This document shows positions 2,105 to 22,900 of a DNA stretch of 64,000 bases, piece by piece (position 1 is the stretch's first letter; each line of letters begins with the position of its first letter). The position numbers were made by a program, and so were the translations under genes. The DNA is taken from NCBI GenBank assembly GCA_020881915.1, contig JAJFPB010000005.1, positions 1,240,001 to 1,304,000 on the forward strand, in the 5' to 3' direction. This DNA is from Paramyrothecium sp. XJ0827. Its lineage: Eukaryota; Ascomycota; Sordariomycetes; Hypocreales; Stachybotryaceae. The notes under the pieces were generated by a model that worked only from the letters and a program-made list of their open reading frames with translations, had not been told where the DNA came from and made no database searches.

Positions 2105-3621
2105 GTTATACTCAGACTGTGGACTTGATTTAATCTACTTTTATATATAGATCTAATAATATATAAATATATTATTTTATCTTATAGATTTAGTATTATT
2201 AAGATAGAATTTATACTTATTATAGTATAACTAGCTTTAAATAGAAATTAAATTATAATTAATATAATATAAAATATTTTTAAATTTAATAATTCTTTAA
2301 ATAATAATAATATAATAATAAATAATCTTATTAATCTAAAGTTCCTTAAAATAAATATAAAGTTATTTTTATTTAGATTTTTTAATTTTCTAAATTAAAT
2401 CTTCTTTAATACTAATAAAAATAAAATTAATATAATAATAAATAAAAATAATATAGAAATTATAAATAAATATATATTATAATTTAAAAATAATTTATTA
2501 GTATTAAATCTAGTATTATAAAAAATAAAAAAATTAATTTTTTTAATAAATTATATTAATTAAAATATTTTTAATTAAATACTACTAATAAAAAAATAAT
2601 AAGAAGAAATATAATTAAAATATTTTTAGAAATAAATCTAATAAAAATAATTATTTAATAATTAAATTATATTAATTCTTTATTATATATAAAAAATTAA
2701 AAGCTATTAAATATATAAAAATAATAATTTCTTTTTAATAATAATTATTAAAAATAATTTATTACTTTTTATAATAATATTAAATAATTAATTTTTATTA
2801 ATTTTAACTTTAAAATAAAATTATTTAAAAAACTACTAATAAGGCCTTATTTAATAAGAAGATTATTATTACTAATTAAATCTATTTTAAGAATATATTA
2901 ATTAATATATTTAATATTAAATAGAATATTTTTATATTTAAATTATTAATTAATAATTTTAATAAAAATATAATAAATAATATTATATTATATAATATAT
3001 CTAAAATCTATTAAATTATTATAATTATAGTAATTTCTATATATATTTAATTTAAATATATAATTATACTTAAGAAGTAAATTTAATAAAATATTAAAAA
3101 TTAATTTATTAAAATTAATAATAAAGAAATTTTATTTAAAATTACTTTAGTAGTTCTTTATAATAATTTTATTTATAAAAGAAATTAAATAAAAATATAT
3201 AATTAATAATAAAATTAATATAATATTAAGTAAAAATATTTAAGTAAATACTTAGTAATAATATAATTTATAAGTTATTAAAAAATAAAAAGAAATAATA
3301 AAATTAAATATATATATAAATAAATAAGAAAAAAAATTATAAAAAATAATAAATTATTAATAATACTTCTATTACTTTAGCTCTTAAATTTATTAAAAAT
3401 AATTACTTAATTATAGAATTTAATTACTATTAAGAAATTTATTAAAATAATCTAAATTTAAGAATCTTAAATAGGGACCTAAATATAATAAAAATAATTT
3501 AATAGGAAGATCTAATACCTAGAACCTTAGATAGAGTAATAATAAAGTTAATAATAAAGATATTTATAATATAATATACTATAGGTACTTATAAGGCTTA
3601 AGTTATTTATTTTACTATATA
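2105..3621. repeat. AT-rich, RIP-saturated block, left half
   Basis: Composition falls to almost pure A/T within a few bases of 2105. Across long stretches hardly any CpA or TpG dinucleotides remain on either strand, while TpA is everywhere. This is the signature of repeat-induced point mutation (C to T at CpA) taken to saturation in a duplicated element. No coding frame survives, so the original element cannot be identified. Together with 5481-6930 it forms one block split by the later transposon insertion. Confidence 0.85.
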
Positions 3622-3623
3622 TA

Positions 3624-3673
3624 ACGTACACCACAAGCGAAAGTCACAACTAAGCGAAAGTCACAAAAATCTC
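3624..3673 (+). repeat. Left terminal inverted repeat of the pogo/Fot1 element
   Basis: Fifty bases identical to the reverse complement of 5429-5478. Inside the TIR the 15-mer AAGCGAAAGTCACAA occurs twice (3635-3649 and 3652-3666), a likely double binding site for the transposase. Confidence 0.95.
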
Positions 3674-3721
3674 TCAACTTACAACCTACCAATTCAATCA
3701 ACCAATTCTCAACAAATCAAC

Positions 3722-5372
3722 ATGCCACAGCAAAATGATGAAGCTGATATTATTCTTGCCCTTCAAGCCCTTCAAAAAGACCCAAAATTAAAAGTCGGGC
3801 GCGCTGCATCAATCTACCAAGTCTGCAGACAGAAGCTGGGCCGCCGTCACCGAGGCACACTATCTCGACACAATATTATAGCCAATTCCCGTAAACTATC
3901 TGATCTTGAGGAACAGACGATAGTTCAGTATATCCTTGACCTGGATTCACGAGGATTTTCTCCCCGGCTTCGTGGCGTTGAAGATATGGCTAATCGCTTA
4001 CTTGCTGAGCGCGACGCGTCTCCCGTTGGAACACATTGGGCTTCCAACTTCGTCAAACGGCAACCAGAGCTCCGGACGCGTTTCTTTCGCAGATATGACT
4101 ACCAGAGGGCCAAATGCGAAGATCCAATTGCGATAAGCGCGTGGTTCGCGCTCGTGGCGAACACAATCGCGAAGTATGGCATTGGATCAAATGATATCTA
4201 TAACTTTGATGAGACTGGCTTTATGATGGGCGTGATTATGAGCGGTATGGTTGTTACAGGCTCAGAAAGGCGTGCAAACCCTAAAAGGTTCAGCCCGGAA
4301 ACCGTGAATGGGTCACAGTCATTGAATCGATCAATGCTGAAGGGTGGGCGCTGCCGCCATTCATCATCGTTGCAGGCCAATATCACCTCTCTAGTTGGTA
4401 TCGCGAAAATAACCTCCCAGGCGATTGGGCTATTGCAACTACTAAAAATGGCTGGACCGATAACGAGACGGGCCTCGAGTGGCTAAAGCACTTCAATCGG
4501 CATACAATTCAGCGATCAAATGGTGCCTATCGTCTCCTGATCCTTGATGGGCATGAGAGCCACCACTCGGTCGCCTTCGAGGATTTTTGCAAGGAGAATA
4601 AGATCATCACGCTCTGTATGCCGCCTCATTCATCTCACCTGCTCCAGCCTCTTGATGTGGGCTGCTTTGGGCCGCTTAAAAGGCATATGGACGAGAAATA
4701 GAGCATTTGATCAAATGCTCTATCACACACATTTCCAAGACCGAGTTCTTTCCCGCCTTCCACGCCGCACACCAAGCTACTATGACCAAGAAAAATATCG
4801 AGGAGGCTTCCGAGGTGCCGGCCTTGCTCCTCTTGATGCAAACTATGTGATCTCGAAGCTGGATGTGAAGTTAAATACTCCAACGCCTCCTAAGGGAACC
4901 CCTGACCTTCCCGACCCTTGGGTTTCAAAGACCCCAAGACAGTCAGAGAAACTGATTATCAATCCGAATACCTTGAAAAGCGAATTAAAAGACATCAAAG
5001 CAGCTCCCCGGCATCAATTATCCAAGCATTAAGGTCATTGACCAAGGGAACTAAAGCAAACTCGCATCGAATAGCATTATTAGAGTCTGAGGTCAAGGAC
5101 CTTCGAGAGACAAATGTAATACTAAGCCGGCGCCGCAGAGAAAAAGGAAACGCTTACGCGATGGAGGGACAATGACTGTAGAGGAAGGTCAAGCATCAAT
5201 TGATCAGACGGATGTTGATATGCAGATATTGGCGGAAACATCGAGGAGAGGAGGTCCGGGAGGGTCAGCGCGACCGAGGGAAAGGCGCTGTGGTGTATGC
5301 GGCAAGCCCGGGCATAATGCACGAACATGTAAGGCAGACATTCCAGCCTCTGGAGATAAGTATAGAGATTAA
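3722..5372 (+). pseudogene. pogo/Fot1-type transposase, five single-base frame breaks
   Basis: The ATG at 3722 opens a transposase with an N-terminal psq/CENP-B-like helix-turn-helix region (about residues 1-130). The DDE catalytic domain follows, with its three acidic residues visible in NFDETGF (near 4205), LILDGHESHH (near 4540) and LQPLDVGCFGPLKR (near 4650). A C-terminal C-x2-C-x4-H-x4-C zinc knuckle (CGVCGKPGHNARTC) lies near 5290-5330. All parts are present and in order, but the frame must change near 4288, 4683, 4806, 4934 and 5144. Each change fits loss of one base in a run of identical bases. As it stands the longest continuous frame ends at 4486, before the second catalytic residue, so the copy should not make active enzyme. 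Frame breaks confined to homopolymers could also be assembly error. Confidence 0.9.
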
Positions 5373-6930: not shown

Positions 6931-7343
6931 CTATAGTAGTAGCCATAGTGGCCGCCACTCCGGCTACGTCAAAATGGCTCAATGAGACGAAATTGACGAA
7001 GCTATTACAAACCTATTGGGGGTGGTATTGTTGAACCGGTCGAATACACCAGGTGGGTTATTTTCACGATATAGAATACTACGTGGCTTTTAGTATATTA
7101 CATAGCAAATGGATTAGATTTAGACTAGTGACTCGGGCGTCTACGCCTACTTTATCCCAAGAGCATCTGTGCTTGGTCGCCAACCAGTCCTTTTCAGGCT
7201 TACCAACATGCTACACCGTCCGTTCCCATCTAAGCTTCGATAGACGCGTAACATCACAAGTCGAGCCGCCAATGGGCTTCGTATCGTCCAGACTGACCAG
7301 CCCATCCTAAAATAATGTGGGAAATAGAGGGGCCGTGATCCAC
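6931..7343. other. Spacer between AT-rich block and gene island, no supported gene
   Basis: Composition returns to normal at about 6935. Open frames here lack any protein features and are short. This is the left edge of the island that carries the CTATAG palindromes. Confidence 0.5.
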
Positions 7344-8215
7344 TCAAGCGTCCTCTTGAACAGTGAGGTCAATCAGGGGGGCCTAAAGCGATTGTGACAT
7401 TAGCTAAAAATCCATGAAAACAACTGGGTTGCAGAAACTGTAGTTCCTCGACAACTATAGTTTCTATATCTTGCTTGAGCAACACTTACCTTAGGTTCAA
7501 TACCGCCGAGAATGGTGGACGGCTTCAACGGCCTCCAATTTTCCATTCTTTTGTTAGACTCGTCTTTGTCGTCAATAAGACTAGTATTACTGCCGCTTCC
7601 CACGGCGTCGGTGTCCTCCCGTTCCCCAAGCTGCAAATTGACTGCGAGCCGACAGGGCCCACCGTCAGTCGGCCAAAGGGCGTCAGTTTCTTCATCACTG
7701 TCATCTTCGGGGTCGCTGCTGAATACGTCGAGCATGTCGTGGTCGGACGAGTGCTCGTCATCAGACTCATCAGAAGAACCCTGCACCAATTGATCGCCGT
7801 CCTCAAGGTCCAACTGGTGAACAGCCCTTTTCACATCTGCAAGGGCGAGCTTTGTGGCTATCAATGTCTAATTCGATCACGAGGCCAAAGATTCAGCAAA
7901 GGACTTACTGATACTTTATTGACGTCCATGACAGCCGCATTGAGATTTCGCTCAACATCTTTCGTTGTTCTCTGGACGGTTTTATTGGCTGCATCAATGG
8001 TCTCAACTGCAAGCTTGACCTTTTTTGCGAGACCTTCGAGATGCTGCAAGGCCAGATGACCTCTGTCGACCCGTTTTTGCTGAGCCTCGAGAATGATCTC
8101 GAGCCTAGTCACGGCGTCTTTTGTGTCGTTAGTGCTTCGGCTCAATGCAAAAGGGGATGTTCGAGCTTGTGAACACTAACTGCGAATCTCAGTGGCGGTT
8201 GCTTGAACTGACATT
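7344..8215 (-). CDS. Unrecognised coiled-coil/acidic protein, four exons, about 218 aa
   Basis: I do not recognise this family. The start is the ATG at 8215-8213. A 34-base first exon is followed by an intron at 8118-8181 (GTTAGT donor, CTAAC branch). A short intron lies at about 7868-7914 (a donor six bases later is also possible), and a 107-base intron at 7383-7489. The stop is at 7346-7344. Residues 13-80 form a heptad-like helical segment (NAVTRLEIILEAQQKR onward). The middle is rich in Asp, Glu and Ser (SSDESDDEHSSDHD), so the protein may bind basic partners or chromatin. The third intron contains an inverted pair of the island motif (7426-7470), and another pair lies 80-300 bases upstream of the start. 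A similar layout of helical N-terminus and Ser/Asp-rich tail is seen at 16865-17377. Exon joins are predictions, but each preserves frame. Confidence 0.6.
7426..7470. promoter_or_regulatory. Intronic inverted pair of the CTATAG palindrome
   Basis: AGAAACTGTAGTT and AACTATAGTTTCT face each other about 6 bases apart inside the last intron of the minus-strand gene. The transcript could form a hairpin. Confidence 0.7.
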
Positions 8216-8296
8216 GTCGAGAAATAATAGCAATGAAGACGGGAAAGCTCTGCTACTATAAAGGTACGTTTTAAATGACTGAAATGTGGTTGAGGG

Positions 8297-8518
8297 ATGT
8301 AGAAACTATAGCTAATGAGCTTTGGATATAGAATAAATAGAGGTTTAAGATCTTGATAGCACAGAAAGAGTATCGCAATTTTATAGGCCATTGACCGGAT
8401 CAACGGCACTACCCCCAATAATATCGTGGCGTCGTCGTCCGAGATAACTTCTAACTTCATCTGAACTCCTTTTCCCACCGCCTACTAACGAACTATAGAT
8501 ATTATAACCTACCCTACC
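8297..8518. promoter_or_regulatory. Promoter inverted pair of the CTATAG palindrome
   Basis: GTAGAAACTATAGC (8299-8312) lies about 85 bases upstream of the minus-strand start codon at 8215. AACTATAGATATTATAACC (8491-8509) lies about 280 bases upstream. The two are in opposite orientation. Confidence 0.65.
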
Positions 8519-8907
8519 CAAGTCCAAGGGGAGAAGTCTTCTTGAGGACGGATGTCCACCCGATCAGAACATAGTAGGAAATACGCCATTCATGTCGAAC
8601 TGGGTTTTTCATCGAGTCCTGGAGAAGGATGTAAAATCCTCATAAAGTCGCCTTGCATTGTGGTTGCGACACTGCGCGTGCCCTACGTATGGAGAGACCG
8701 GTAATGAATGTGAATTCTTTGGTTTATGTCGTCTTAAAGTCTTCTGGCTTCATAAGTTCATCTCGACGCATCATGCCGAGCGTGACATCTAAGACCCCTT
8801 GTACAGAATCACTTGATGCTGTTTCTTGCCCCACTTACAAAGCACTCAAGGGTACCCAGCATGACAGCCGACAAGCACACTGACCTTTCGACAACCGCCC
8901 GTATGGG

Positions 8908-9117
8908 CTTATAATAACTATAGCCCGTGACGTCATAGCAATTCGAGCACATCTAGACGTAACTCGCTTCCTTAGAGGCCAAGGATCACGTGAACATTTC
9001 CCCCAGCTGCCCAGGTAGCTATTTACCACCCGTTCCTTCCCTCCCTCGATCATCTTCTTTCTTCCTTCCTCACATCTCGATTTGCAGCCGCGCCAGCAAC
9101 TATAGTTTCTACAGCCC
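8908..9117. promoter_or_regulatory. Promoter inverted pair of the CTATAG palindrome
   Basis: ATAATAACTATAGCCCGTGA (8911-8930) is the distal copy. CAACTATAGTTTCTACAGCC (9097-9116) is the proximal copy, about 80 bases before the ATG at 9197 of the SNF2-like gene. Confidence 0.7.
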
Positions 9118-9196
9118 CTCTTTAGCACCCCTCACGTACCTTCTTTGCTCCCGTGTATTGCTCTAGAACTCTCACACACAAACCTCAGGCGGCTCA

Positions 9197-12100
9197 ATGC
9201 CTCGTGGCCGTGGGGGTAAGAAGCGGACCGCTTCTGGTAACAATGAAGGCCGTGCCAGTAAACGCCAGAAACCGCCAAAGAAGGATCCTCGAAATGAAAA
9301 TGACGACACAGATCTAGCCAATCAAGACGACGAGGACAAGAACTCAGAAAATGATGACCTTGGTGAAGCAGAAGACACGGCAGAGATTCAATTTCCACAT
9401 GATACGCCCACATTTGTCAAAACAACCGTCAAGTTCTTCCGACAAAGCAATGAAGAACAAGATGCCCAGGTCGCCCAGTTCCAGGACGAAGAACTCCTCA
9501 CGTTCTGCCAAAAGGTCCAAGATACCATTAGCCACGCATCGATCATCGACAAAGGAATATCCTCCATCCTTACTACAGAGCGTTTTCAGCGTATGATGGA
9601 ATACGCTGCGGATCTTAACCATATGAAGAACACCCTTGTCGCCACCAAAGCTGCCCAGGACAAGGCAGACAGGAAGAAAAAGAGGAAAAACAAAGAAGGA
9701 GACATACGCGACATGTCGCCTGGAGCAGTAGCTGAAGTGTCGTCTGCAGCTCCAGACCCACCACTCCCATCCGCCCCGGTCGCATTATCCCAGCAGCCAA
9801 ATCCAGAAGCGGGTCCAAGCGGCCATCAACAAAGCGAACAAGCTTCAGACTCAGCGAATCAGGATCAGGCCCTCTACAAACCACTGCAACCGCTTCCTGT
9901 TGCCACAGAAGCCGTCGGTAATGATAGCAAGCCTGGTGACTGGAAGGCTGGCAGACCATTTCTCGCGTACAGGAACTTCTACGTCAACGATGACTCCTTT
10001 GTTGACCACCCGCCAAACTTTGCCAAGAAGTCCTTTGATAAACTCTACGCCGCGTATCAGAAGGATTACGATAAAAGGCCCACTGGGTCCAAGGTGCTCG
10101 GTGCAGGGGCCCAACCACCGGACACCTGGGTGGCAGCCTACCTCGGATTCGCAAGCATAGCTGCATACCTCACGTTTCTCGACAGGGAATGTAAGTTGCC
10201 TTATTACTCTTCTTCCTCCATAAGCATCTCATCTTGGTATTCCCAAGTGGGTTGAAATAACTATCGTTTCTGCAAGCCAGGCAGCAACTACAGTTTCTAC
10301 ATCTCCCATTTTCTGTCATTACAAGACCAGCCTCACTGACATTTACTCCGCTACAGTACCTCGAGCTATCGACGAGTATGCTGGCATTGTCCTCAAGAGA
10401 AAGGATGTGGCTGAGGAGCTCGACCACCAAAAGCTTTCCGCTTACAATTGTAAGACGGTGCTACCCCAGAGCAATAAGATTTGGGGAATGTTCCGAACCA
10501 TTGACGAAACTCATGGATGGCTGTGTCGAGCACTGATGGAGTCAGATGCGACGGTGGTCTAGAGTACCCCGCCGTATCTGAGAGAGTCAAGGGCGGGCAA
10601 CACCATCCCTGGATGGACCGATAAGAAGATCGACCAGAAGCTGTCGACTATTGCAGCTATGTTCTCACTGATGAGGCATTTCCCTACTAGGTTTCGATCT
10701 GGGAGCCACCCCCCCCCTTCGGCTGACTTGGCAAATTACACTTGGGGATTCAATCATGAGGACTGGAATCGCGCCCTTACTGTCATCAATGCGTTCAAAA
10801 ATCGACGAGCCAGGACGAGCGGGCCGGCAGACAATTGCTCCCAATTCTCACCAATTTTCTACGGGTATGTTACTCCCGAGAACATGGAAGCCCAATCGGT
10901 GGCAGAAATGGAAAAGCACCAAAAGGGTGTACTTGCGGAGATTGAGCTCTTGCACGAAGGAATGGCTGAAGTTTTCGCTGCTGAGATGGAGGAGGACCTT
11001 GACCAGGAACCGACGACAAGTCAGCTTATCTTAGGCTTTCGAAACATCAAGGGTGGTGTTAAGCTTACTGACGAGCAAGGGGAAATCCCAGACTCAACTC
11101 GAGACGGGTTGCTCGCGGTGGAGTTAGAGTCCCGTTTCGTCGCAGCTGTAGAGGGCGATAAACCGAAAGGCGACCTTGGCGAAACACTGAAGGGTAGACG
11201 TCAAGCCGGTATGGAGGAGCTCGCACCTTTCACCGATCAAGAGAGAAGGCATCTCATTCGCGCGCTCAAGCAGCGTGCCAATGAACAACCCAGAGTGCAG
11301 TCAACGGAAGACACACCGGTCGGTCTACTCAACGAGGATGGCCAAGATACCCGGCCAGCTCTGATCGCCGAAGCTGAAGCACATGTGGAGACTGAGACCC
11401 TCAAAGAGTTGGGACATCTAGCCCCGGTATACGATGACTTTCCACCTGAAGAGCTGGACCTTGAGAAAATCGCAAAAGAGGTCGGATTTGAAAGTTGGGA
11501 GACACTGCGTACGAATCCAGACCCCGAAGTGAACCCCAACGCTACGGCCATGCCTTTTCAACTTGTGGACGCCTTTGATATCGCAAACAAAATGGACAGC
11601 CCGCTACGCGCCGCTATCATAGCCAATGAATGTGGCACAGGGAAAACAGTTACCTACCTTCTCTCCCTAAGGATATCCATCGAGCGACGCCAAAAGAGGA
11701 TCGAGTCTGGCGAGATTACAGTGGGCGAGGACGATCTGATGCATAAGCCGTCTGCTGTTTTCATGCCTTCTAACACCATTGATCAATTCTTCCGCTGCAT
11801 TGAAAACTTTTTTCAAGGCTACTACAAAGCATGGTCGGTATACCAAACCCAAAGCAGTTGTACGGCACCCAGTCGCGCTCAGTTCACTTTGGGTAACGCA
11901 GACGAAGTCCAAAAAGTGGTCAACAAGCTTAGACTCAAGCACACTGATCCAGAGGTAAGTGCAGACGGTTTCATTGTCCAGACTCGGTCTACCAACCTAC
12001 CTTAGAATTACTTCGTGGATATGGTTCAAGGATCGAGTAACTATAGTTGCTTCACAATAACAAAAGAACTATAGTTATTTGATGCCCGATTTGTCCTGCA

Positions 12101-14737
12101 TTTCGGAACACACAGTGGCTAATCCTTGTATAGACAGCGCGAAATATCTTTGTCATGCCTTACTCTACCGCCGTGAAGAGGATTGTTGAGAAGGGAAGAG
12201 CCAAACGAGTCAGCCGCGGGACACTGGATTCTCTCGAATCGGGTGAGATACGCGACGAAAGCACCGTTATATATGATGATGGTGCAGACGAAAGCGACGA
12301 TGCAGCCTACCGCCCTGATCTCGAGGTTGATGCTACTGCTGAACAGGCCCCTATCAAAATGCGGGTTGAGAACATGGAACTGAATTGGGTTATATGTGAT
12401 GAGGCTCACTTCGCTAAAACCAGGACATCACACACGCATCAGATGCTTCGTGCTCTTTCTCGAGAGGCAATTATGTTTGTGTCTGCGACACTAATGTCGA
12501 ATCACGTGCTTGATATCCTTGGGTTCACCAACCTGATATGGAACCCCGCGTGGCCCTTTGTGTTCCGAAGTTCTGGCGGAGAGGAGGCGGATTCCTTCTA
12601 TAAGGATGGTGAACTATGGGAGAAGGTGAAGAAGGGTGAGAGCTATCTCGGGATAGGTCTTCCCCGCCTTCTGGGCGATGCAGGAGATATGGATCCTCGA
12701 GACGAGTTCGGAATGACGGAGCGCGAGCTCCAGCATCGTGACGAGTACATTACAGCTGTCAGTCAGGGGCAACTCCCAATGTTCATGATGAATCCTGGCT
12801 TGATCGCAAGCATGGCCAGAAAGACGAATCACGACACCGACTTCTCAATGCACGTCGTTCGACCTCTTCTTCGAATGCTTGCCATTAGGCGAAGCATGCT
12901 CACGAAGTTGACACTCCCAGACGGCACCTTTGCTTGGGCTGGCAAGGGCTTAAAACCAATGAAGATCACGACAGTCGAGTTGCGTCCTGATGCGAGCAAT
13001 AGGCGCACCATCCTTCGCCAGTTCACAGGTCTGAAAGAACTGCTCTATACTCAAACCCCACCAAATAAGCAGCAGCATGTTGGAAATGGACAGGTGGCGA
13101 CTAAGGGGGCCGTCATGATGAACGGCAATATACTGAGACGCCTCGCGTTAGGCTCTACGGACATGCATAATCTCACGCTCACCTCGATGACCATAAGAAA
13201 ACTCAAACTTCTTGGTGATCGTGTCTTTCAAGAGGAACACGAAGAAATAGGCTCTTGTACGCAATCTAGAGTTCAGCCGGACCCAATCGGCCAAGACGAG
13301 GCTGGGGTTGCGCCCGATCGTCACCCCGACGCACCCAGCAAGCTGTCACGGACCATTAACCCAAAGGTCAAGCCTGTCGCCGCCGGGTCATCTGAAGTTA
13401 ACTCGATCAGCATGCAGTCGAGTGACGGCGGATTGGTCTGGAGATTCATGCTGGTAAGAGCAAGCTCTATGTACAAATGGCCAACAGAGCGAATCCAGCA
13501 GATTTTGTGCACCTGCCATGACTCCCCGAAATACGCGTGGGTTGTGGCCAAGGTCCTCGAGATGCAGGAACAGGGGAAACGAATACTCGTATACACGAAC
13601 AACCCACTGACCACCTTGTAAGTCTACTCTCAAATTTCCGACTGGCTCGACACAATCAACCCAGGTCTTCTTTTGGAAGTATGGGTTGTACAATCTATAG
13701 TTGGCTTGTCAAGACAGCACCAACTATAGATTGTACAACCCAGGTTGCGTGACCGAAGGATTGAATGAAAGAATATTGTGTACTGACAGGTGGATTCTAG
13801 AATCATCACCGCGTTGCTTACTATTGCTGGTGTGCGCACACTCTCTATTGCTAGTCGCCATTCTCCGGAGGAACGTGAAACGAGCGTCCGCCATTTTAAC
13901 CATCCCGGATCAGGATACACCGCTCTTGTGACCTCTATGCAACTATCTGCTTTCGGAGTTGACTTCCATCACGCCTGCTACACCGGTATTATCATGGAGC
14001 CTGCGAAAAGCTTGCAGGTTGAACTTCAAACCTGTGGTCGTACCCACCGTGTAGGACAAATGCACCCAGTCGAGTGGTTTCGGCTGATTTGTCGAGACAC
14101 CTACGACAGCTACCTCGAGGCGCGCAACCTCGAGAAGTACGCGACAACAATGGCTGCTGAGGGTCCCATCAACGATAACATAAAAGGCCAAGCAAGAATT
14201 ATGGTTTGTTATGAGTTGTTGCGTGAGTTTTTAGGGCAGGATGTCAGTCGATACCCTCGCATCGCGGTTGACTGGCATCGGATGGATTCCGACGAGCTCC
14301 GCGCAGAAGGCCTCTTTTACAGCGCTCTCGCCCGAGCCATAAATAAGGAGCCAGAATTATCGCGCGGTCTAGACACGTCCACAGCAGCGGACATCGCAGC
14401 GCGATGGACACCCTCTACAGAGATCACCAAGGATCACTTCCACGGGTCTGTGGAGATCGTCCCTGAGAACATGAGGGTCAAGTTGGGGAATTTTCGTCTT
14501 GGTGACAAAGAGGCGGAGGCACAGCGGGACGCCGAGATAAGTGTGGACGCTGTTCCAAGGAACCGTAGACCCGAATCCAAAGGCGTATGGCGGCGTGGGT
14601 CAGAGGACGACGCTTCTGATTTTAATGAAGACAACACACTAGCCGACCCTCGCACACCAGAAAATAGGACTGTCGTCGATTCCAAGCTTGATGGCGGTCA
14701 AATGCGGGAGGGTCCCAAAAAACCCGACAGAATCTAG
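9197..14737 (+). CDS. Large SNF2-like ATPase with one in-frame stop, four exons, about 1670 codons
   Basis: Exons 9197-10190, 10357-11954, 12134-13617 and 13801-14737 join in frame to 1671 codons. The N-terminal 130 residues are Lys/Arg then Asp/Glu rich, with a likely nuclear signal (KRQKPPKK). The ATPase core shows Walker A (IANECGTGKTVTYLL, near 11620-11665), motif Ia (AVFMPSNTIDQF), Walker B (WVICDEAHFAKT, near 12385), motif III (FVSATLMSN), and the C-terminal lobe with HSPEERETSVRHF, QLSAFGVDF and GRTHRVGQ (near 13860-14060). These define an SNF2-type remodeller/translocase. A TAG at 10560-10562 interrupts exon 2. CAG or TGG to TAG would each be a single C:G to T:A change, as RIP produces. 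No plausible intron removes it, so the gene is either broken, or read as two proteins with the second starting at 10659. All three introns are long (166, 179 and 183 bases) and each holds an inverted pair of the island motif. Confidence 0.75.
10250..10306. promoter_or_regulatory. Inverted motif pair in intron 1 of the SNF2-like gene
   Basis: TAACTATCGTTTCTGC (10257-10272) and CAACTACAGTTTCTAC (10285-10300) lie close together within the 166-base intron, flanked by GGG on the left and CCC on the right as in other copies. They are more diverged than the other pairs. Confidence 0.55.
10560..10562 (+). other. In-frame TAG stop inside the SNF2-like gene
   Basis: The frame is open for about 32 codons on either side and reads protein-like (AGNTIPGWTDKKIDQKL follows). 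The stop separates the basic/acidic N-terminal region from the ATPase core. Confidence 0.85.
12037..12080. promoter_or_regulatory. Inverted motif pair in intron 2 of the SNF2-like gene
   Basis: TAACTATAGTT and AACTATAGTTA are exact reverse complements (and near-palindromes), separated by 18 bases. Confidence 0.7.
13681..13742. repeat. Perfect inverted repeat (23-base arms) in intron 3 of the SNF2-like gene
   Basis: The left arm begins TGGGTTGTACAATCTATAGT and the right arm ends ACTATAGATTGTACAACCCA. The 23-base arms match exactly around a loop of about 16 bases. It carries the island's CTATAG core and would form a very stable hairpin in the pre-mRNA. Confidence 0.9.
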
Positions 14738-15054
14738 CCACTCATATTAGGCACATCCTCACACACGGCCCTCTTTGACATGTTTGAATAAGGGATTTCG
14801 AATCTGGCCGGGCAATAGCAGTCTCCATAAGACTGTGAAAGACATCGAGAATTGCTCACGCTGGAAGGATTGGAGGCTCAGGGTAAGAGTCGGTAATGAC
14901 GACGACCTCTAGGTTTACTAAACAGGTAGCTCAAGGATCTTATTTAGCTTTAGATCTGCCAGATATGGAGAAAGTTATTGCTTCGGCTCCTGGACATCCT
15001 GCAACGTTCGTGTATACCATCGCCATCACTAAAACGGGCTTTCGGTTTGACTTG
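14738..15054. other. Spacer, no supported gene
   Basis: About 320 bases after the SNF2-like stop with no coding signal. The promoter of the next gene begins at its end. Confidence 0.5.
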
Positions 15055-15228
15055 TAATAACTTTAGTTCGTGACTGAGAGATGGGTGGAGCTGCAAAAGG
15101 TGCAGAGGCTTCATCTAAAAGGGCTACCCCATGAGATGGTCACTCTGTCCTGCAACTTACACTCCTTCGTATCTAATATGAAGCCGGTGAACCCTTCTCC
15201 CAACACCAACTACAGTTACTACAGCCCA
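15055..15228. promoter_or_regulatory. Promoter inverted pair of the CTATAG palindrome
   Basis: TAATAACTTTAGTTCGTGAC (15056-15075) is the distal copy and CAACTACAGTTACTACAGCC (15207-15226) the proximal copy, about 40 bases before the ATG at 15263. The distal form resembles the one at 8911 (TAATAACTATAG..CGTGAC). Confidence 0.6.
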
Positions 15229-15262
15229 CCTCTGCACCGACGACAACATCGATCATCCTACA

Positions 15263-15926
15263 ATGCCTCCCAATCCTTTCGAAACCACCAGCGCTGCTGA
15301 CTGGGCGGCACTCCAGAAGCCTGAGTACAAGCTGTTTTTCATAACGACCCACGAGTATCTCTCCCAGCGGTGCACAGAATGTCTATTCCACCAAAGAGAG
15401 TGCAAGGGCACACCAGGTGAGAGTCTAACACCACTACCGCGAAAAACATATTGGCCGTATCTGACAATTGGTTTTGATAAAGGTTCAACTTGCGATCACT
15501 GCATTCAAGATGGCACAAGCAAAGCCTGCAAGCCAATTGGCCAAGTCCTCCATCTGACGACCAACGTACCAGTTGCACCCGCTGGTACAAGGATGACAAT
15601 GGCCAGCCGTATCGCTCATGACTACTTGAGCCGATTTGTGAGCACTCTGTTTCCTCTACCGCCGCCTATTGGAACTTCCATTGTCCGGGTTACTGACTTG
15701 GCCATTCAGGAGGGGCGTGATGGCGTGGAAAAGGCAATCTTGACTGTTGAGGTACTCGAGCATCACACAATTACACTCACACCAGTGACATGAAGCTAAC
15801 ACATAGCAGAATTGTCAGCAAGATGACGCATCGCGCATTTTACTCCGAGGTTTCCTCAAGGATATCGAAGACGAGGCCCGCCAAAACAAGCCCGCCGCTA
15901 ATCGCGATGGACAAGAGCGAAATTAA
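15263..15926 (+). CDS. Small protein with a Zn2Cys6-like cysteine array, three exons, 179 aa
   Basis: Exons 15263-15416, 15483-15751 and 15810-15926 join in frame. After splicing, six cysteines at residues 37, 40, 47, 55, 58 and 67 are spaced C-x2-C-x6-C-x7-C-x2-C-x8-C. That matches the binuclear zinc cluster of fungal Gal4-type regulators (C-x2-C-x6-C-x5-12-C-x2-C-x6-9-C), with the usual proline in the central loop (KGTPGST). The residues between cysteines 2 and 3 (LFHQRE) are less basic than in typical family members, and no fungal-TF middle homology region fits in 179 residues, so this is a variant or stand-alone zinc protein. Intron 1 (66 bases) is a multiple of three without stops; retaining it would insert 22 residues into the loop between the two cysteine triplets. 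It is preceded by a motif pair, which makes it a candidate regulator of the island. That role is inference. Confidence 0.6.
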
Positions 15927-16601
15927 GACATTCGAACGTATGATCTAAGGACCTCTACGTATTAGAAATGTTGGTGTTGGGCCAAATCGGCAACGTCTCT
16001 TGATAGAGGATTAACAAACCAAGCCCCGCGGAGAGATTTTATACAATCTTTGAACTTATGTGAGGTTAACAGTAGCTTCCCACCCACAACTCAAACAACA
16101 TACAATACATACCTGAAACGAAGTGCATGATTGATGTTAGGACAAAGGAAAAGATTTTTCTTGTTCAATGTGGGGAGGGTCGTGCATATTGTCTACCTGT
16201 AGGGTAGATCTAGGGCAGTCCGCACCTATTGAGCTTGGCCAAAACCTGATCCGTCCAAAATATCATCCCATACCTGCACGAATTCATACTTCCGCATTAG
16301 TGAGCTCGACCGGTTGAAAGTGAGATATTGTAACTAGGATTGAGGAAGTTATTTTCGCTCGTACAGAATGAAAGGGTGCCGGCCAAGATGTCGAGACGTT
16401 CAACACTCACTCACTGGTGAGCATGTAGTAGAAGAATACGATAATGATCTCATGTGGTGAGTACGACCAAACAAGACCATGGCATGGGTAAGAGGCAACG
16501 CTTCGTACCAAAGGGACTCTTTCACGGGAAGCTCAAAGTTGAGGTACCCTAGCGAAGATGGGGAAATGGTTCGTGAGGCAAAAGCCAGGTCAACAGCGAG
16601 G
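15927..16601. other. Spacer, no supported gene
   Basis: Roughly 670 bases with no convincing coding frame. Short open frames lack protein features. The next promoter pair begins at 16602. Confidence 0.5.
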
Positions 16602-16737
16602 TGTAGAAACTATAGTGCCACTCACCTGTCCGATACTGCCTTATGTAAAGAGATTCACCGCACTTCACTCACAGTCGGAGAACTTAAACCTTTACTTATC
16701 CTCTAGCTTCAGCTTAGCAACTATAGTTTCTACAACT
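16602..16737. promoter_or_regulatory. Promoter inverted pair of the CTATAG palindrome
   Basis: GTAGAAACTATAGTGCC (16603-16619) is distal and CAACTATAGTTTCTACAACT (16718-16737) proximal. The pair is about 130 bases upstream of the ATG at 16865, or 80 upstream of the out-of-frame ATG at 16819. Confidence 0.7.
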
Positions 16738-16864
16738 CCATTTACTCCACGACAAAGTCGATCTACCCAAGCTCTACAACAAAGGTCTCCCCGCCACTCA
16801 CGTGCAGCTTGATCCACCATGCCGTCCCAGGACATTGCTAAAGCTCTTCGAGGTTGGTGGTACC

Positions 16865-17377
16865 ATGGGTTTACATGATGCAGTATTTGACGCCAGTACT
16901 GACGTGCCAAAAGAAGCTGTTGAGAGGCTTGAGAGCATATCGGATTTTGCTCTTACCATGGATCATCACGCATCCGAGGCCGCGTCTGAATGGTCTGACC
17001 GATTCGAGGAAGCCAAAGCAGCCCTTCAGTTGGTTGCTTATCATCACAAGGCCATGATGAAGGCAAACCGAGCTATTCAGGCCTTCATCGAAAGCGCTTT
17101 GGGTAACATGACACGACTCGCGGTATGGAAAATGCTGAGGAACGGAAGAATGGCGGGATTAACCATGTTTTAGGCGAGCAACCGAGAACTGAAGAAAATT
17201 TCCGAAGCTTTGGACAAAGAATGTGTCAGTATTGACGCCAATATCAGCGAATCCTCACCGGATACTGTTTCCGATGGTTCCATCAACCAAGTTTCGTCTG
17301 ATCAAGACATGTCAGACATGTCGTCGGTCGAGGAGCCTGCGGTGTTTCAGCCCGATTCCAAGCCCGCGAACGAATAG
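16865..17377 (+). CDS. Unrecognised helical protein with Ser/Asp-rich tail, two exons, 153 aa
   Basis: I do not recognise the family. The ATG at 16865 is the first in frame. Another ATG at 16819 is in a different frame and would need an intron of only about 31 bases, so I did not use it. Exon 1 (16865-17122) encodes a mostly helical region with evenly spaced Ala/Glu/Lys. An intron at 17123-17173 (51 bases, GTATGG..TTTTAG) leads to exon 2 (17174-17377), which opens with a helix (RELKKISEALDKE) and ends in a Ser/Asp/Glu-rich tail (SSDQDMSDMSSVEEP). Size and layout resemble the protein at 7344-8215. A donor-like GTGAGT directly follows the stop codon, and a full island palindrome lies 20 bases further on, so a 3' UTR intron is possible. 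Confidence 0.55.
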
Positions 17378-17397
17378 GTGAGTTCAGATCTTAACAG

Positions 17398-17422
17398 GTT
17401 ATAGAAACTGTAGTTTCTTCAA
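17398..17422. promoter_or_regulatory. Single full copy of the island palindrome
   Basis: TAGAAACTGTAGTTTCTTCA: both halves abut without a spacer. It lies just downstream of the small helical protein's stop codon. Confidence 0.65.
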
Positions 17423-18206
17423 CCCACTGTCGCTTGGATTTCACTGACAAGAGCTGAAGCTTTGCCCACCCACTTTGAACGGTACTTTAGCGGATGGATA
17501 GCTGGGGGTCTGGTTCACATCATTTCATGGCTGGAGTCGGTAAGGAATCGTTTTGGTTGGGCGACGAGGATGCTAGGAAATATGCCGTTAGATTATAACG
17601 TCGCTGGGCTCTTGGCACGCGGACCTCTTATGTGACTCGGAGACCCAGCCCGAGTAGGTCAGGTTGAGAGCAGTCGCTTTCATGTGATGCTGCATAGACA
17701 AGACGCTATTCTCTACTTGGGATTTTGATGTGCTAGATATGTCGAGAGAGTGCGAGTCGCTGTGCTGTGACCTTCATGTTGTACATCGATTAGGCGATTA
17801 GTCAAACGAGCCTGTTTGGTATATACTTAAGAATAAGGCTATAAATAAGTGAACCAGAGAAAATGTAACAGGATGTCTCGAGTCAATTCCCAGATAGCGA
17901 CTGAAGAAGGATTGAGAAGACTCAGATAATTTTCATGAGTCAGAAATATATAGTAGATTCGGATGCCTTGGATATTACGCCGACAGAAAGGGCCAAGGAA
18001 TACATGTAGACCATGTTAATTTAGCATATAATGCAGAGTTGTAAGAAGCCAATCGAGTCCTATGAGCAACGAAGTTATGAAATCTACCTGAATGACATGA
18101 CCTGCTATTCCATCTCAAACGAGATTCTCCCTGATGAATAAACCCTCTCACGAATCGCATGGTACGGCCGCGGGCTTTGTGAAACACCTGTCCATCCCAA
18201 GCTTTA
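17423..18206. other. Spacer, no supported gene
   Basis: About 780 bases between the ends of the plus-strand gene and the minus-strand gene. No coding frame or repeat was recognised. Confidence 0.5.
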
Positions 18207-20305
18207 TCAGTTAAAACCTGAGTGTTCTAAAGTACCATCCTCATCGCTGTTCTCTTCTTCGCGCTTTCGTTTTTTGGCTCTCCACCTCGCTGCCCTTGCA
18301 TTATTCTGTGCCTTGATGGCTGCAATATCAGCTTCCACTTCTTCCGGGGTCATCTTGGCTCTTCTCTTTTCTAGTGCCTTTTGCCGTCCTCCATTACGAC
18401 GGTACTTGTCTTGCCTTCTCTTCATGGACTCCTTCCCCTTCTCGGTGTGACGGTGTTTCGCATCATACTTTCTGTGATAATCACGACGGGCCTGATCTGC
18501 CGCGTCTCTTTCTTCCCGAGTCATTTTTTCCCTCCTGGCTTTTCTGCCAAGTTGTTGAGAGATGTTGCACTTCTCCTTGTTGTTTGCCCTCCACTCCTTC
18601 ATTTTGTTCTTCCCGTGCTCGGAGACCACGTAGGCTAACTTGTAAGTGCGCTGGGCAGCGCGCTGAGCAGCCTTCTGTTCCTCGGTTCTGTTGGCCCGGG
18701 ACTTAGCAGCGGAAGCCCTCAAGGATGCCTTCCCGTTACTCGAGGTCCTCCATGCCTTCATTTTGTCCTTCCCCTTTACGGAGTTTCGGTACTTGGTGAA
18801 CCTGTGTTTCCCCTTTTGATAATTCTCATTATTGCGGAGGAGACGAGCGTATTCGGTTGTGAAACCCCCCTTCAGCCAATGAAGAGAGGGAGGGAGGAAC
18901 GAATCTAGCACGGCCCAGGCATTGGAATCCTGATAAGCCTCAAATATGTGCATAGTGATAATGTTGAGATGCTGGTCAAGAGTGGCTTCTGTGAATGAAG
19001 ATGGGACCTTGCATATAATCGCTTGTATGAGTTCAGCATTCGCCATACCGGATGACGTGTTCGGATCACCATATTGAATAGCAGCCTTGCTGGAGTTGCT
19101 AGCACACGAAAACGCAGTGTTTGTGTGGCGCCAGTCTATTGCGATGTGGGATTCTTTCAAGTCCAGATAATCCATTATCCTTATCATCTGGACTTTGGAG
19201 GATCTTGAACTGGCAGGGGGGTCCTGATCTTGGACCAACGAATGAAGCTGAGGCACACCTGATCGGCGCAAGACATTGGCAAAAGCGTGGAGGTGGTCAT
19301 GCTTTTGGAATGTGTATGAGGGCGCGATTGTGCGTCCAATGTCATCGAGGGCTGGCATTAACTGGTCTTCAAACAGCCGTAGCACGACACGACTCCACCC
19401 AGTGAATTGGTTTTCAAGTAGAATGATTGGATGCCATGGAATCCGATGAAAACTTCTAGTAAATCGTCGGTCGTCCAAGATGTTGAATCCACGTGCATAT
19501 GCTGTGACTGATCGGGAGAATCCCAAGGTACTGTGGACTTGAATATTAAACACATTCTTGGCGATTAGAACCTCTGTCATTGTAGCAAGAGAGAGGATGA
19601 GCTCTTCTCTGGCACTTTGTATCCCGGGACACCTGCGATCTTCCGAGTCTCTCCGACATTGTTTTCGGTAGTTGAGAGCGAGTATACCGACTGCCATTGT
19701 GTTCTCGATATCTGAAAGCGTAAGTGAAACCGAATAAGGTGGCGGGGTTAGAGAAAATACATACATTTGGCGAGCGTTTTTATAAATAGGTAGGTGAACC
19801 GTGGTTCAGCTTCAGCATCACCTACGCGCGTGTCATGATGTGGGCAATGCAAAGCAATCAATACAACCTTTCTCCCCCTATTTCTTTCGAACTGTTCCAT
19901 CAACGGCCAAACCCATCCACTTGATGGTGGAAACCGAGTTTTGAATCCATTCAGAAAGATTCGCAGGTCACCTTCGGAACGGTTTTCGCTGAAGTAGCGT
20001 AGAATAACCAGGAGCTCGTTCAGCGAGGCATCGGTCGCAAATTCTTCCTCTAGGATTGTTGGGTCTGACCAGGAACGCGATTTCCGGGATGACATGGGCC
20101 ACCGTCTTATCCCACTAAGCTCGATAGGCACTGGGCCATGGAATAGAGATAGTAGAGAGCCATCTAACTCGGAAGGGGAGGACGTGTCAGTCTGATGTTT
20201 TAGTGGGTGTTCGTTGTGGTTTAGAACATCAGGTGGTACACAGGAGTGGGACTTTGTTGGGTAGTCCAAGCGCTGCTTATCGTCACATTCAGGAAGAGGC
20301 TCCAT
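18207..20305 (-). CDS. Island paralogue A: unrecognised protein with a long basic C-terminal tail, about 681 aa
   Basis: Two exons (19765-20305 and 18207-19711) join through a 53-base phase-1 intron. Residues from about 85 on (LLVILRYFSENRSEGDLRIF ... ERNRGRKVVLIALHCP ... YRKQCRRDSEDRRCP ... FHRIPWHP) align along their length with the plus-strand gene at 21098-22510. The intron falls at the same place and phase in both, so the two are paralogues. The last 190 residues are unique to this copy. They are strongly basic, with repeated segments of the type KGKDKMKAWR / HGKNKMKEWR / KGKESMKRR ending in RWRAKKRKREEE, which looks like a nucleic-acid-binding and nuclear-targeting tail. The 5' end is uncertain. 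The frame stays open to about 20,440, where a GCTAAC..AACAG acceptor suggests a further upstream exon; an alternative ~41-base intron is also possible. No known domain is recognised. Confidence 0.6.
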
Positions 20306-20599
20306 AAATGTTGGATGTATGGTTGGTGTAAATGGTTTACAAGGTGAGGGAGTGAGTCGCGATCTCCTTTTGCGTCGCCGACGATGTCCTGGAATGACGA
20401 CGAGTAAGGTAGATGAGGGGTGCTGTTCATGTTAGCATCTGACGATATGGCCATGGAAACCTCAATCACCTACTTGTGCATGTGAACACTGAGGGATAGA
20501 ACACGACACAAAGAATGACTCTGGGGTGGTAATCGCCTGGGAAATGGAACAGAATGGATGATCTAGACGGCGACACACAAGGAATGGTAACGGGAAGAT

Positions 20600-20740
20600 G
20601 GGTTGTAGAAACTATAGTTGATTGGCTTCTGTCGAGGAGGTATGAAGATATTTAAGTTTTCTTTATTCCTTCCTTTATAGCCTCCTTCCTTTTATACATC
20701 GAGCAGAGATGGAAGGAGCTATAGTTACTATAACTCACCC
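20600..20740. promoter_or_regulatory. Shared inverted motif pair between the divergent paralogues
   Basis: GGGTTGTAGAAACTATAGTT (20600-20619) faces the minus-strand gene. GAGCTATAGTTACTATAACT (20716-20735) faces the plus-strand gene. Each is the proximal copy for its own gene, so one pair serves both directions. Confidence 0.7.
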
Positions 20741-21097
20741 AACGCAGGGTACCCAGGCGCACGGTGAGGGCATCTAGCATACCATGCCATGGATATGTGT
20801 GCGTCAAGTTTTAGCATACGGTATAAGACTTGAGTAAGGTAGTCGCAGTAGAGATTTGGTCAAAGCTGTCGAGCCCTGGCACCATTTACGAAAATGGAGG
20901 CAATAGGGAAGCAAATCGTAGCGCTATCTACCTCTGTAGAGTACACGAGATTGCCGATTACAAAAGGGTTTAGTGTCATTCTAGCAAAAAAAGTCCACTA
21001 TCACGCTGGACACGGTGATTGAACCATCCTTGGCAGACAGACAACATACCAACCCCGATTTTAGCACCACATAAGAGAACAGCATACAGCCCCGAGA
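20741..21097. other. Leader/promoter region of the plus-strand paralogue
   Basis: About 360 bases with no coding frame joined to the gene. Several short upstream ATGs are present. A 5' UTR intron cannot be excluded. Confidence 0.4.
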
Positions 21098-22510
21098 ATG
21101 CGTCCAAAACGTGTAGCAGCGGGTGTGGCGAATGAGCGCATCCGACAGGTTAGTGTAGTAATGTAGCTGATAATAACAATGCTAAAAAGTAATAGCATGC
21201 TAGTGCCGAAGCTGAGATCAAAGTCGACGAAGAAAGTGATGCAGAGTCCATCAACGATATTAACCAATCATCGATAAGTATCCGAAGACCATCTCCTCCA
21301 GGGTCAAATGACGATGATGATGCAGTAGCACCATCGGACTCTGATGACTCTGATTGGGAAGATGATGAAAGCATATACTCAAGTGCTGGTTGCGAAGCCC
21401 AAGAGGGTGAATGTCTTGCCCTGGAAGATAACTACGCTCTCGAAGAAGATCCCATCTTACATGTAGGAGGAGATCAAAGTCGGAAGTGGTGTGACCCAAT
21501 TCAATTGGTGTCAGAATATGGCCAAGATCCGAAGAGGTTCAATGCTATTGTTGATGAAATTGCTACATTGCGCGACGAGTCAGACCTCTTGTTGTTTCTT
21601 TCTGAAATATCTCGCTCCTGGGGAACAGGCTGGTTCACCCCCTTATTAGACCAATTCCGCGCAAACCGCAACCAGGCTGTGGTCCTGGTTATCTTACACT
21701 GCCCTAAGGAAGACCGAGCAGTAAATATTGAAGAACCTCAACTTCTGACAGAGTGGTTCACCAAGGGCATCACGGGCTGTAAGTACAGCTGTATTGGAGT
21801 CAAATCCTAAGCTAATATGTGTGTTTTCAGATATGGAACAGATGGGAGTAAGCTGCATAGCTATGGATCTCCGAAAAGAATGCCGTCGAACCCGTAATGG
21901 GAAGCGGTGTCCAAGCCTAACCCGTACGGAGATAATTTTATCTACCATGGCAACGTACTGCGAATTACTAGTCGCGAACAATGTTTTTGGCATTCGAATC
22001 GAAGCCACAATTGCCGTATCAGCTAGTACTTCGCAGGGAGTCAAGATCTTGGCAGAACACCCTACTGCAAAAAGTCTAATGGGAAGTGTCTTCTATGTCC
22101 CATGGCACCCTGCCTTCGTCTCCGAGATTTTAGTCGACATTGGGCAGGCCAGTGCTCAAGCACTAGTACGACATATGATAATGGCATGCTACGCTCCAAT
22201 CATACAACAAATCCTCGAAATGTTCGATGAAAAACATATGTTCGACGAGGGCGAATTTTGGGACCATTTTTGGTTCACGTGTATATCAAGCGGTAACCCT
22301 GTTCTATTCAAGCTCATGGTTCCAAGGCGAGCCATCCAAAGCAACCACAGGAGCCTAATGGAAGTCCTCGAAGTAGACGCAGAAATTACGCCAAAAGCAC
22401 TGAAATCGATGCAAAACAAAAGGAAAGTGACAGACAGAGAGGAGAGGGCCATCTATTCAATGAGGATCCAGGGTTTACTCGATCTGATGGCTAGGGTGAG
22501 GATCACCTAA
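21098..22510 (+). CDS. Island paralogue B: unrecognised acidic protein, three exons, 437 aa
   Basis: The ATG at 21098 opens a 17-codon exon (21098-21148) with basic residues (MRPKRV). A 47-base intron (21149-21195, branch GCTGATAATAAC) leads to exon 2 (21196-21778), and a 52-base phase-1 intron to exon 3 (21831-22510). Residues 20-125 are acidic and low-complexity (SDSDDSDWEDDES). The remainder matches paralogue A: FRANRNQAVVLVILHCP, LRKECRRTRNGKRCP, LLVANNVFGIRIEAT, SVFYVPWHPAF. It lacks A's basic C-terminal tail and has an acidic N-terminus instead, so the pair may have diverged to complementary roles (inference). No known domain is recognised. Confidence 0.65.
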
Positions 22511-22639
22511 TTCAATGGATGTGGTATATTCGAGGTTTATTGTGGAGAACACATTCTCACATTGCTCTCGCTGGCATTTCATTTGCCATCAGTGTCTCAC
22601 CATGCGACGGGAAGGTATTCGGCATCGCATTTTGGGCCT

Positions 22640-22656
22640 TTAATAACTATAGTTCT
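22640..22656. promoter_or_regulatory. Isolated island motif
   Basis: TAATAACTATAGTTCTTCAA, downstream of paralogue B with no obvious gene attached. Confidence 0.5.
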
Positions 22657-22877
22657 TCAAGCAATGATCAATTGAGGTCCTAAGAGACCATGGTTCATTT
22701 ACACGGTAGTAGCAGTGATAGAGATAGCAGAGTGTGAATGCGATCATAAGTTCCAAGGTCTAGGTTCTGCCCATCCTCCAAATCAGTGAGCCATGACTCT
22801 AACATATCTTAGAAACGCCCACAACTTCACCCTGTAGCATGCAATCATGAGTGTTACAGTATATTGGATGAAGGACG

Positions 22878-22900
22878 AGTTGTACAAACTATAGTTCATC
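22878..22900. promoter_or_regulatory. Isolated island motif, last copy
   Basis: GTTGTACAAACTATAGTTCA. It is the rightmost copy I found and marks the end of the island just before the core genome begins. Confidence 0.55.

Follow-up and report, generated by a model that had tools for sequence, protein, structure and literature searches.

Paired 23-bp sites confined to a six-gene island in Paramyrothecium sp. XJ0827 as putative operators of a private regulon

We analysed 64,000 nucleotides (nt) from the ascomycete Paramyrothecium sp. XJ0827 (assembly GCA_020881915.1, contig JAJFPB010000005.1, positions 1,240,001 to 1,304,000), a stretch that is called the window here at its full length. It includes a 15.5 kb island of six genes: A (7344..8214, minus strand), a gene for an SNF2-like ATPase (9197..14737, plus strand), C (15263..15926, plus strand), D (16819..17377, plus strand), E (18207..20305, minus strand) and F (21098..22510, plus strand). 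A short sequence recurs through this island. An earlier note on the same DNA had counted about 20 copies of it between 7.43 and 22.9 kb, and we located 21 cores in 7426-22899. The repeat unit is a directional 23-bp site, GGGNTGTAGAAACTATAGTTNNT, built on the palindromic 10-bp core AACTATAGTT. When the copies are aligned on the core, the information lies on the GGGTTG side and in a T three bases past the core. Each copy has one good outer half, that on the GGGTTG side. The 20-base palindrome proposed in the earlier note is corrected accordingly, as most copies are not palindromic over their full length. The site has a second variant, in which AT replaces GA ahead of the core.

We assessed how well the site is distinguished from its background in the window. 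The idealised 20-mer GTAGAAACTATAGTTTCTAC has four matches in the window at up to three mismatches, compared with none in 100 shuffles. The core with at most one mismatch has 21 matches, 20 of them within 7426-22899; the site at 8906-8928, which has two core mismatches, brings the island total to 21. At two mismatches the bare core loses its specificity (23 matches inside the island, 21 outside it in the window). A 23-column matrix performed better. In leave-one-out scoring the 21 sites reached 18.7-34.5, whereas Markov shuffles of the window, 20 in all, did not score above 17.1. With the full matrix the lowest score among the island sites is 24.3; elsewhere in the window a single hit reaches 9 or more, at 12.8. 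The earlier statement that the motif is missing from the rest of the window is therefore borne out, in that no core of island strength occurs there. The best full-matrix score in seven 10-kb control loci, of which six were picked because they contain bare cores or partial matches, and to which the left neighbour (L011) was added, was 18.1 (L006, C9:459664), compared with 24.3 for the weakest island site.

We then scanned the source genome (51.77 Mb; all genome scans cover this genome only) with a tool whose scoring is limited to the best candidates and which passes over very common words. The earlier note had named such a scan beforehand as the result that could refute it, and the outcome favoured confinement: 14 of 15 matches to GGGNTGTAGAAACTATAGTTNNT at up to three mismatches lie in the island, as do all 10 at up to two, and the reversed control word has six matches. 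For GTAGAAACTATAGTTTCTAC at up to three mismatches, all four genomic matches are in the island and three matches of the reversed word are scattered. Since the reversed word has almost as many matches, it is the location, not the count, that is informative. A 16-mer has all eight of its matches at up to one mismatch in the island; allowing up to two mismatches raises its total to 31, of which 16 fall inside and 15 outside the island (control 68). The second variant has all five matches at up to two mismatches in the island, and at three mismatches four in the island and eight elsewhere (control 7). Of the 28 exact copies of the core AACTATAGTT, eight belong to the island and 20 are dispersed; the reversed control has 89. 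Beyond the 15.5 kb island, this genome contains the site no more often than chance would give.

Of the 21 cores, 18 are arranged in nine convergent, that is inward-facing, pairs. Five of these pairs are wide, with gaps of 91-171 bp, and occupy five promoter regions serving the six genes. The matrix scan placed them upstream of A (8294..8510; sites 8294-8316 plus and 8488-8510 minus), of the SNF2-like gene (8906..9117; 8906-8928 plus and 9095-9117 minus), of C (15049..15227; 15049-15071 plus and 15205-15227 minus) and of D (16598..16738; 16598-16620 plus and 16716-16738 minus), and between the divergent genes E and F (20600..20736; 20600-20622 plus and 20714-20736 minus). TATA-like words stand between the paired sites on the A side (TATAAAA) and on the E side, where they read in the direction of E; a simple word search found no TATA-like word between the sites of the other four genes. 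The proximal promoter site ends 79 bp ahead of the ATG in A and in the SNF2-like gene, 35 bp ahead in C and 80 bp ahead in D; the distance is 294 bp in E, whose start codon is uncertain. The sequence CTAYAGTTWCTACA is common, in the sense direction, to the proximal sites of A, SNF2-like, C, D and E. This constant reading direction follows from the convergence of the pairs and is no separate evidence.

The other four pairs are tight, with gaps of 1-13 bp, and lie in introns. Matrix scan and intron models place them in the last intron of A (7383-7489; pair 7426..7472, sites 7426-7448 plus and 7450-7472 minus), in SNF2-like intron 1 (10249..10305; 10249-10271 plus and 10283-10305 minus) and in SNF2-like intron 2 (12029..12086; 12029-12051 plus and 12064-12086 minus). 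The pair in SNF2-like intron 3 (13683..13741; 13683-13705 plus and 13719-13741 minus) is marked by a strong hairpin. The gap is 1 bp in A and 11, 12 and 13 bp in the SNF2-like introns, and the latter spacing agrees with what proteins binding a constant distance apart should give. The arms of the intron 3 pair are identical at 22 of 23 positions, and 13682-13742 forms a perfect inverted repeat whose 23-nt arms are separated by 15 nt. The two arms depart from the consensus in the same way, which may reflect local conversion. Three cores remain. One is the full palindrome at 17396..17425, which the matrix scan places directly after the stop codon of D, its two directions scoring 27.7 and 28.1; it lies within a probable intron of the 3' untranslated region (UTR) of D, which aligns in part with the last intron of A. 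The other two are same-direction sites found downstream of F by the matrix scan (22635..22657 and 22877..22899, both on the plus strand). No obvious gene accompanies the sites in 22635-22899, which perhaps formed the promoter of a lost gene.

The placement described by the earlier note, in promoters, in introns and after genes, agrees with these five promoter regions, four introns and positions behind D and F. It had also reported that the copies avoid coding exons. Coding exons cover 65% of the island and, with corrected exon borders, none of the 22 scored site positions overlaps them. Within the introns, which measure 75-183 nt, the sites lie in the interior and not at the ends. Site directions alternate in 18 of 19 neighbour steps (20 sites, with the full palindrome at 17406 omitted; P ~4e-5 under random directions), a test that was chosen after the data had been seen and that takes core 10259 in its better matrix direction. 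This core is the left one of the 10249..10305 pair; it is near-symmetric and also scores 20.7 in reverse. The sites at 22635 and 22877 are the sole neighbours that do not alternate.

The SNF2-like gene has four exons and a frame of 1670 codons that is open apart from a single in-frame TAG at 10560-10562 (codon 400). The stop may be a recent inactivation of the gene in this strain or a base error of the assembly. Pfam detects Helicase_C at 29.6 bits (cut-off 23.5) and SNF2-rel_dom at 22.6 bits, slightly under its cut-off of 24.9, and a four-member profile matches ISWI and SNF2 structure chains with E-values down to 6.6e-14. Three relatives at 32-34% identity in local alignments were found, one each in Fusarium fujikuroi, Dactylonectria macrodidyma and Fusarium culmorum, in searches that scored only the ~8,000 candidates sharing most words. 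On these alignments, the ATPase appears to belong to a divergent branch of the SNF2 family. The SNF2-like alignment gave no relatives among viral contigs. Separately, the exact 16-mer was found in 59 stretches of viral contigs with one match apiece, which we took as chance.

Gene C encodes a protein of 179-180 residues that is an orphan in the searches made here. The GAL4-type Zn2Cys6 consensus is CX2CX6CX5-12CX2CX6-8C, and we take the cysteine spacing of the spliced product of C (CX2CX6CX6CX2CX8C) to fit it. No Pfam family matches C at an E-value of 10 or below. Comparison of C with solved structures gave weak matches to NifE (E-values 0.08-0.09), which were rejected as chance. Gene A encodes 219 residues in its splice model, with an acidic tail and an N-terminal half that looks coiled-coil-like by eye. 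Gene D encodes 148 residues and is a weak paralog of A (23% identity; E-value 0.01 for a single comparison). The promoters of A and D align over 76 columns and their last introns align in part. In both promoters the proximal site, 79 bp (A) and 80 bp (D) away from the ATG, is accompanied by a distal one, and each gene has a further site unit in its last intron.

Genes E (681 residues) and F (439 residues) are paralogs, with 41% identity over 104 residues. The C-terminus of E is basic and repetitive; in the region encoding it, at 18210-18899, DNA copies of the basic repeats follow one another 159-177 nt apart. Structure prediction without an alignment gave long helices and no clear fold for this C-terminus (mean predicted local distance difference test score (pLDDT) 75, predicted template modelling score (pTM) 0.24); it is a possible nucleic-acid-binding part. 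For part of F, the same kind of prediction gave a mean pLDDT of 34. The spliced proteins of A, D and E have no Pfam family above cut-off, and no biosynthetic enzyme domain is above cut-off in the six island proteins. In a self-search of the genome, SNF2-like exon 3, gene C and the tested part of D match only themselves at the thresholds used. The second exon of E matches itself, F and one chance-level place (E-value 0.46).

The search also revealed relatives of the island close by. A decayed, partial copy of the island lies to the left of the window at C11:1236166-1238719 (L011:6166-8719), 9-11 kb left of the island. It comprises a broken stretch equivalent to part of E, aligned over 250 columns at 72% DNA identity, a broken F counterpart with in-frame stops (67% over 897 columns), a counterpart of the E/F promoter and, in inverted orientation, a piece of SNF2-like exon 2. 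The last exon of F matches the broken F-like copy at C11:1237378-1238025, and SNF2-like exon 2 matches C11:1238384-1238578 (E-value 4e-6) and, weakly, C8:3898707-3899066 (E-value 0.005). The counterpart of site 20714-20736 is recognisable in the decayed copy and eroded, with four changes and a matrix score of 14.4. For site 20600-20622, a matrix scan of the decayed E/F promoter found nothing above -4.7. Apart from the decayed copy, the 30 kb left of the window hold one hit of at least 11 (11.8), and the 10 kb to its right hold none. We conclude that a local duplication of the gene set took place in the past and that the site decayed along with the decayed genes.

Other features adjoin the island on the left. 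A relic of a Tc5-type DDE_1 transposase with shifted frames occupies 3602-5372, ~2 kb from the island. AT-rich blocks left of the island adjoin this relic, and GC falls to 12% at 2.0-3.0 kb. An inverted repeat of 28 nt (82%) joins the left island edge (7014-7041) to the interior of the gene A promoter (8393-8420); it is possibly the remnant of another promoter copy.

We propose, with a probability of roughly 0.7, that the island is a private regulon and that the 23-bp sites are putative operators of one sequence-specific DNA-binding protein. The sites are read as regulatory because they are confined genome-wide, overlap no coding exon and repeat one layout from promoter to promoter, and because A and D, at 23% identity, still keep them at matching places. 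The decayed copy fits sites that are retained only where the genes are retained. Under this proposal, a dedicated protein, most simply one encoded in the island, would read the 23-bp site. The product of gene C would be the first candidate, on its cysteine spacing alone, and those of E and F the next. The binder would bridge paired sites; bridging a wide pair could loop the promoter and switch the whole gene set together, and the tight intron pairs would provide extra binding points in the transcribed region, acting as roadblocks or enhancers. As to the direction of control, we lean to autorepression, because the promoters are bracketed and sites probably lie downstream of the transcription start. 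The SNF2-like ATPase might conceivably clear or remodel the sites. A bolder version of the private regulon, in which the island is self-contained, possibly selfish or horizontally acquired, and controls itself independently of the host through a private operator code and a dedicated SNF2-like ATPase, is offered tentatively and is itself improbable rather than expected.

Several observations weigh against the private regulon. No DNA-binding Pfam family scored above cut-off in the island proteins scanned, where SNF2-like exon 2 was covered from the in-frame stop onwards, past its first 68 codons, and among 33 candidates gene C had no relative at an E-value of 1 or below. Sites in introns and behind F are not expected for fungal activators. 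The in-frame stop in the SNF2-like gene means that the island may be decaying. When the near-symmetric core 10259 is read the opposite way, as a simple flank count has it, alternation drops to 16 of 19 steps (P 0.002). The erosion of the site in the decayed copy suits a functional coupling of sites and genes, and neutral decay as well.

The earlier note had left two readings side by side, one DNA-binding protein for a linked gene set or a private family of tiny mobile elements; the first fits our results and the second gained no support. As mobile elements, the pairs would be miniature inverted-repeat elements with terminal repeats of ~23 bp, inserted into promoters and introns by local transposition. 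Convergent pairs do resemble terminal inverted repeats, non-coding positions only are hit, and the DDE_1/Tc5-type relic lies ~2 kb off. Such elements predict matching arms and insertion duplications, however, and neither was found, which argues against them: none of 10 units has a target-site duplication in its flanks, as inspected by eye, and the two arms of one pair resemble each other no more than do arms across pairs (mean 16.6 vs 16.5 of 23 positions, nine pairs, P ~0.49). The inner gaps range from 1 to 171 bp, and the genome has no excess of the site elsewhere. We regard mobile elements as unlikely. Slightly less likely again is a post-transcriptional role of the pairs as stem-loops in introns and UTRs. 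The units in SNF2-like introns 2 and 3 fold far better than shuffled sequences (z -4.5 and -7.8; none of 200 shuffles as good), and the intron 3 unit is the perfect inverted repeat described above. The other three intron units tested beat most shuffles somewhat (8 to 10 of 200 as good), but with z -1.8 to -2.0 these are weak folds, and some folding is expected of any inverted pair. Covariation of the paired arms was not found with wobble pairs allowed (P 0.23 for nine pairs, 0.17 for the four intron pairs), the promoter pairs are 91-171 bp apart, and distal promoter sites would probably fall outside the transcript. An Rfam search of 4000-25000 placed mir-549 on the intron 3 hairpin at 29.6 bits; with a cut-off of 93, this assignment was rejected.

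The inverted wide pairs around promoter regions would also suit recombination sites, at which a recombinase flips the promoter between them as in bacterial phase variation. The copies differ from one another, though, the tight intron pairs are separated by just 1-13 bp, and the island proteins that were scanned carry no recombinase domain, so that we give this explanation very little credence. We rate no higher the explanation that a general transcription factor of the host binds the copies, or that they are repeats due to chance. It could draw on the matches outside the island, namely 20 bare cores, 15 matches to the 16-mer at two mismatches and eight to the second variant at three. These counts are near or below those of the reversed controls (20 vs 89, 15 vs 68 and 8 vs 7, and 1 vs 6 for the 23-bp site), and the genome scan contradicts both forms of the explanation.

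If the private regulon is real, the island would amount to a eukaryotic example of an orthogonal control circuit, built around an SNF2-like gene set. The site makes the reader protein, and the silencing or switching of the island as a unit, directly testable, and the neighbouring decayed copy provides a natural comparison.

We compared the island with known systems. A search of an open-access literature library returned nothing recognisable as the motif or the layout; the bare core string retrieved, among the matches listed, nearly all malaria genotyping. The likeness of the ATPase to the SNF2 family consists in its helicase core and in the profile matches to SNF2 and ISWI structures, from a branch that is divergent. 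At the gal and lac operators of bacteria, an operator pair flanks or spans the promoter and is bridged by one protein, with looping of the DNA. The island resembles them in having paired sites at promoters; looping would be suggested here by the layout alone, and the host is a fungus with chromatin. Symmetrical stwintrons of fungi, as excerpts of the sources describe them, carry inverted repeats of 45-55 nt at their termini and lack flanking duplications (PMC8469720, PMC9860276). The island shares with introner-like elements and stwintrons, so described, the presence of inverted repeats inside fungal introns; stwintrons are themselves the repeated unit, whereas the island pairs sit within introns and also in promoters. 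The closest parallel is to the Api-box of the apicidin F cluster, alongside which an excerpt of the source names the Tox-box (PMC4109984). As that excerpt has it, the Api-box is 8 bp long and lies in promoters, with one copy per bidirectional promoter. In both cases one motif is enriched in the promoters of linked genes relative to the genome, and a reader encoded in the cluster has been proposed for the Api-box (PMC4109984). Unlike the Api-box as given there, the island site is 23 bp long, stands mostly in inward-facing pairs, has copies in introns and is at chance level elsewhere, and the island is without metabolite enzymes above the Pfam cut-off. Cluster-private motifs are already known in fungi; what differs here is the length of the site, its pairing, its placement in introns and the gene content of the island.

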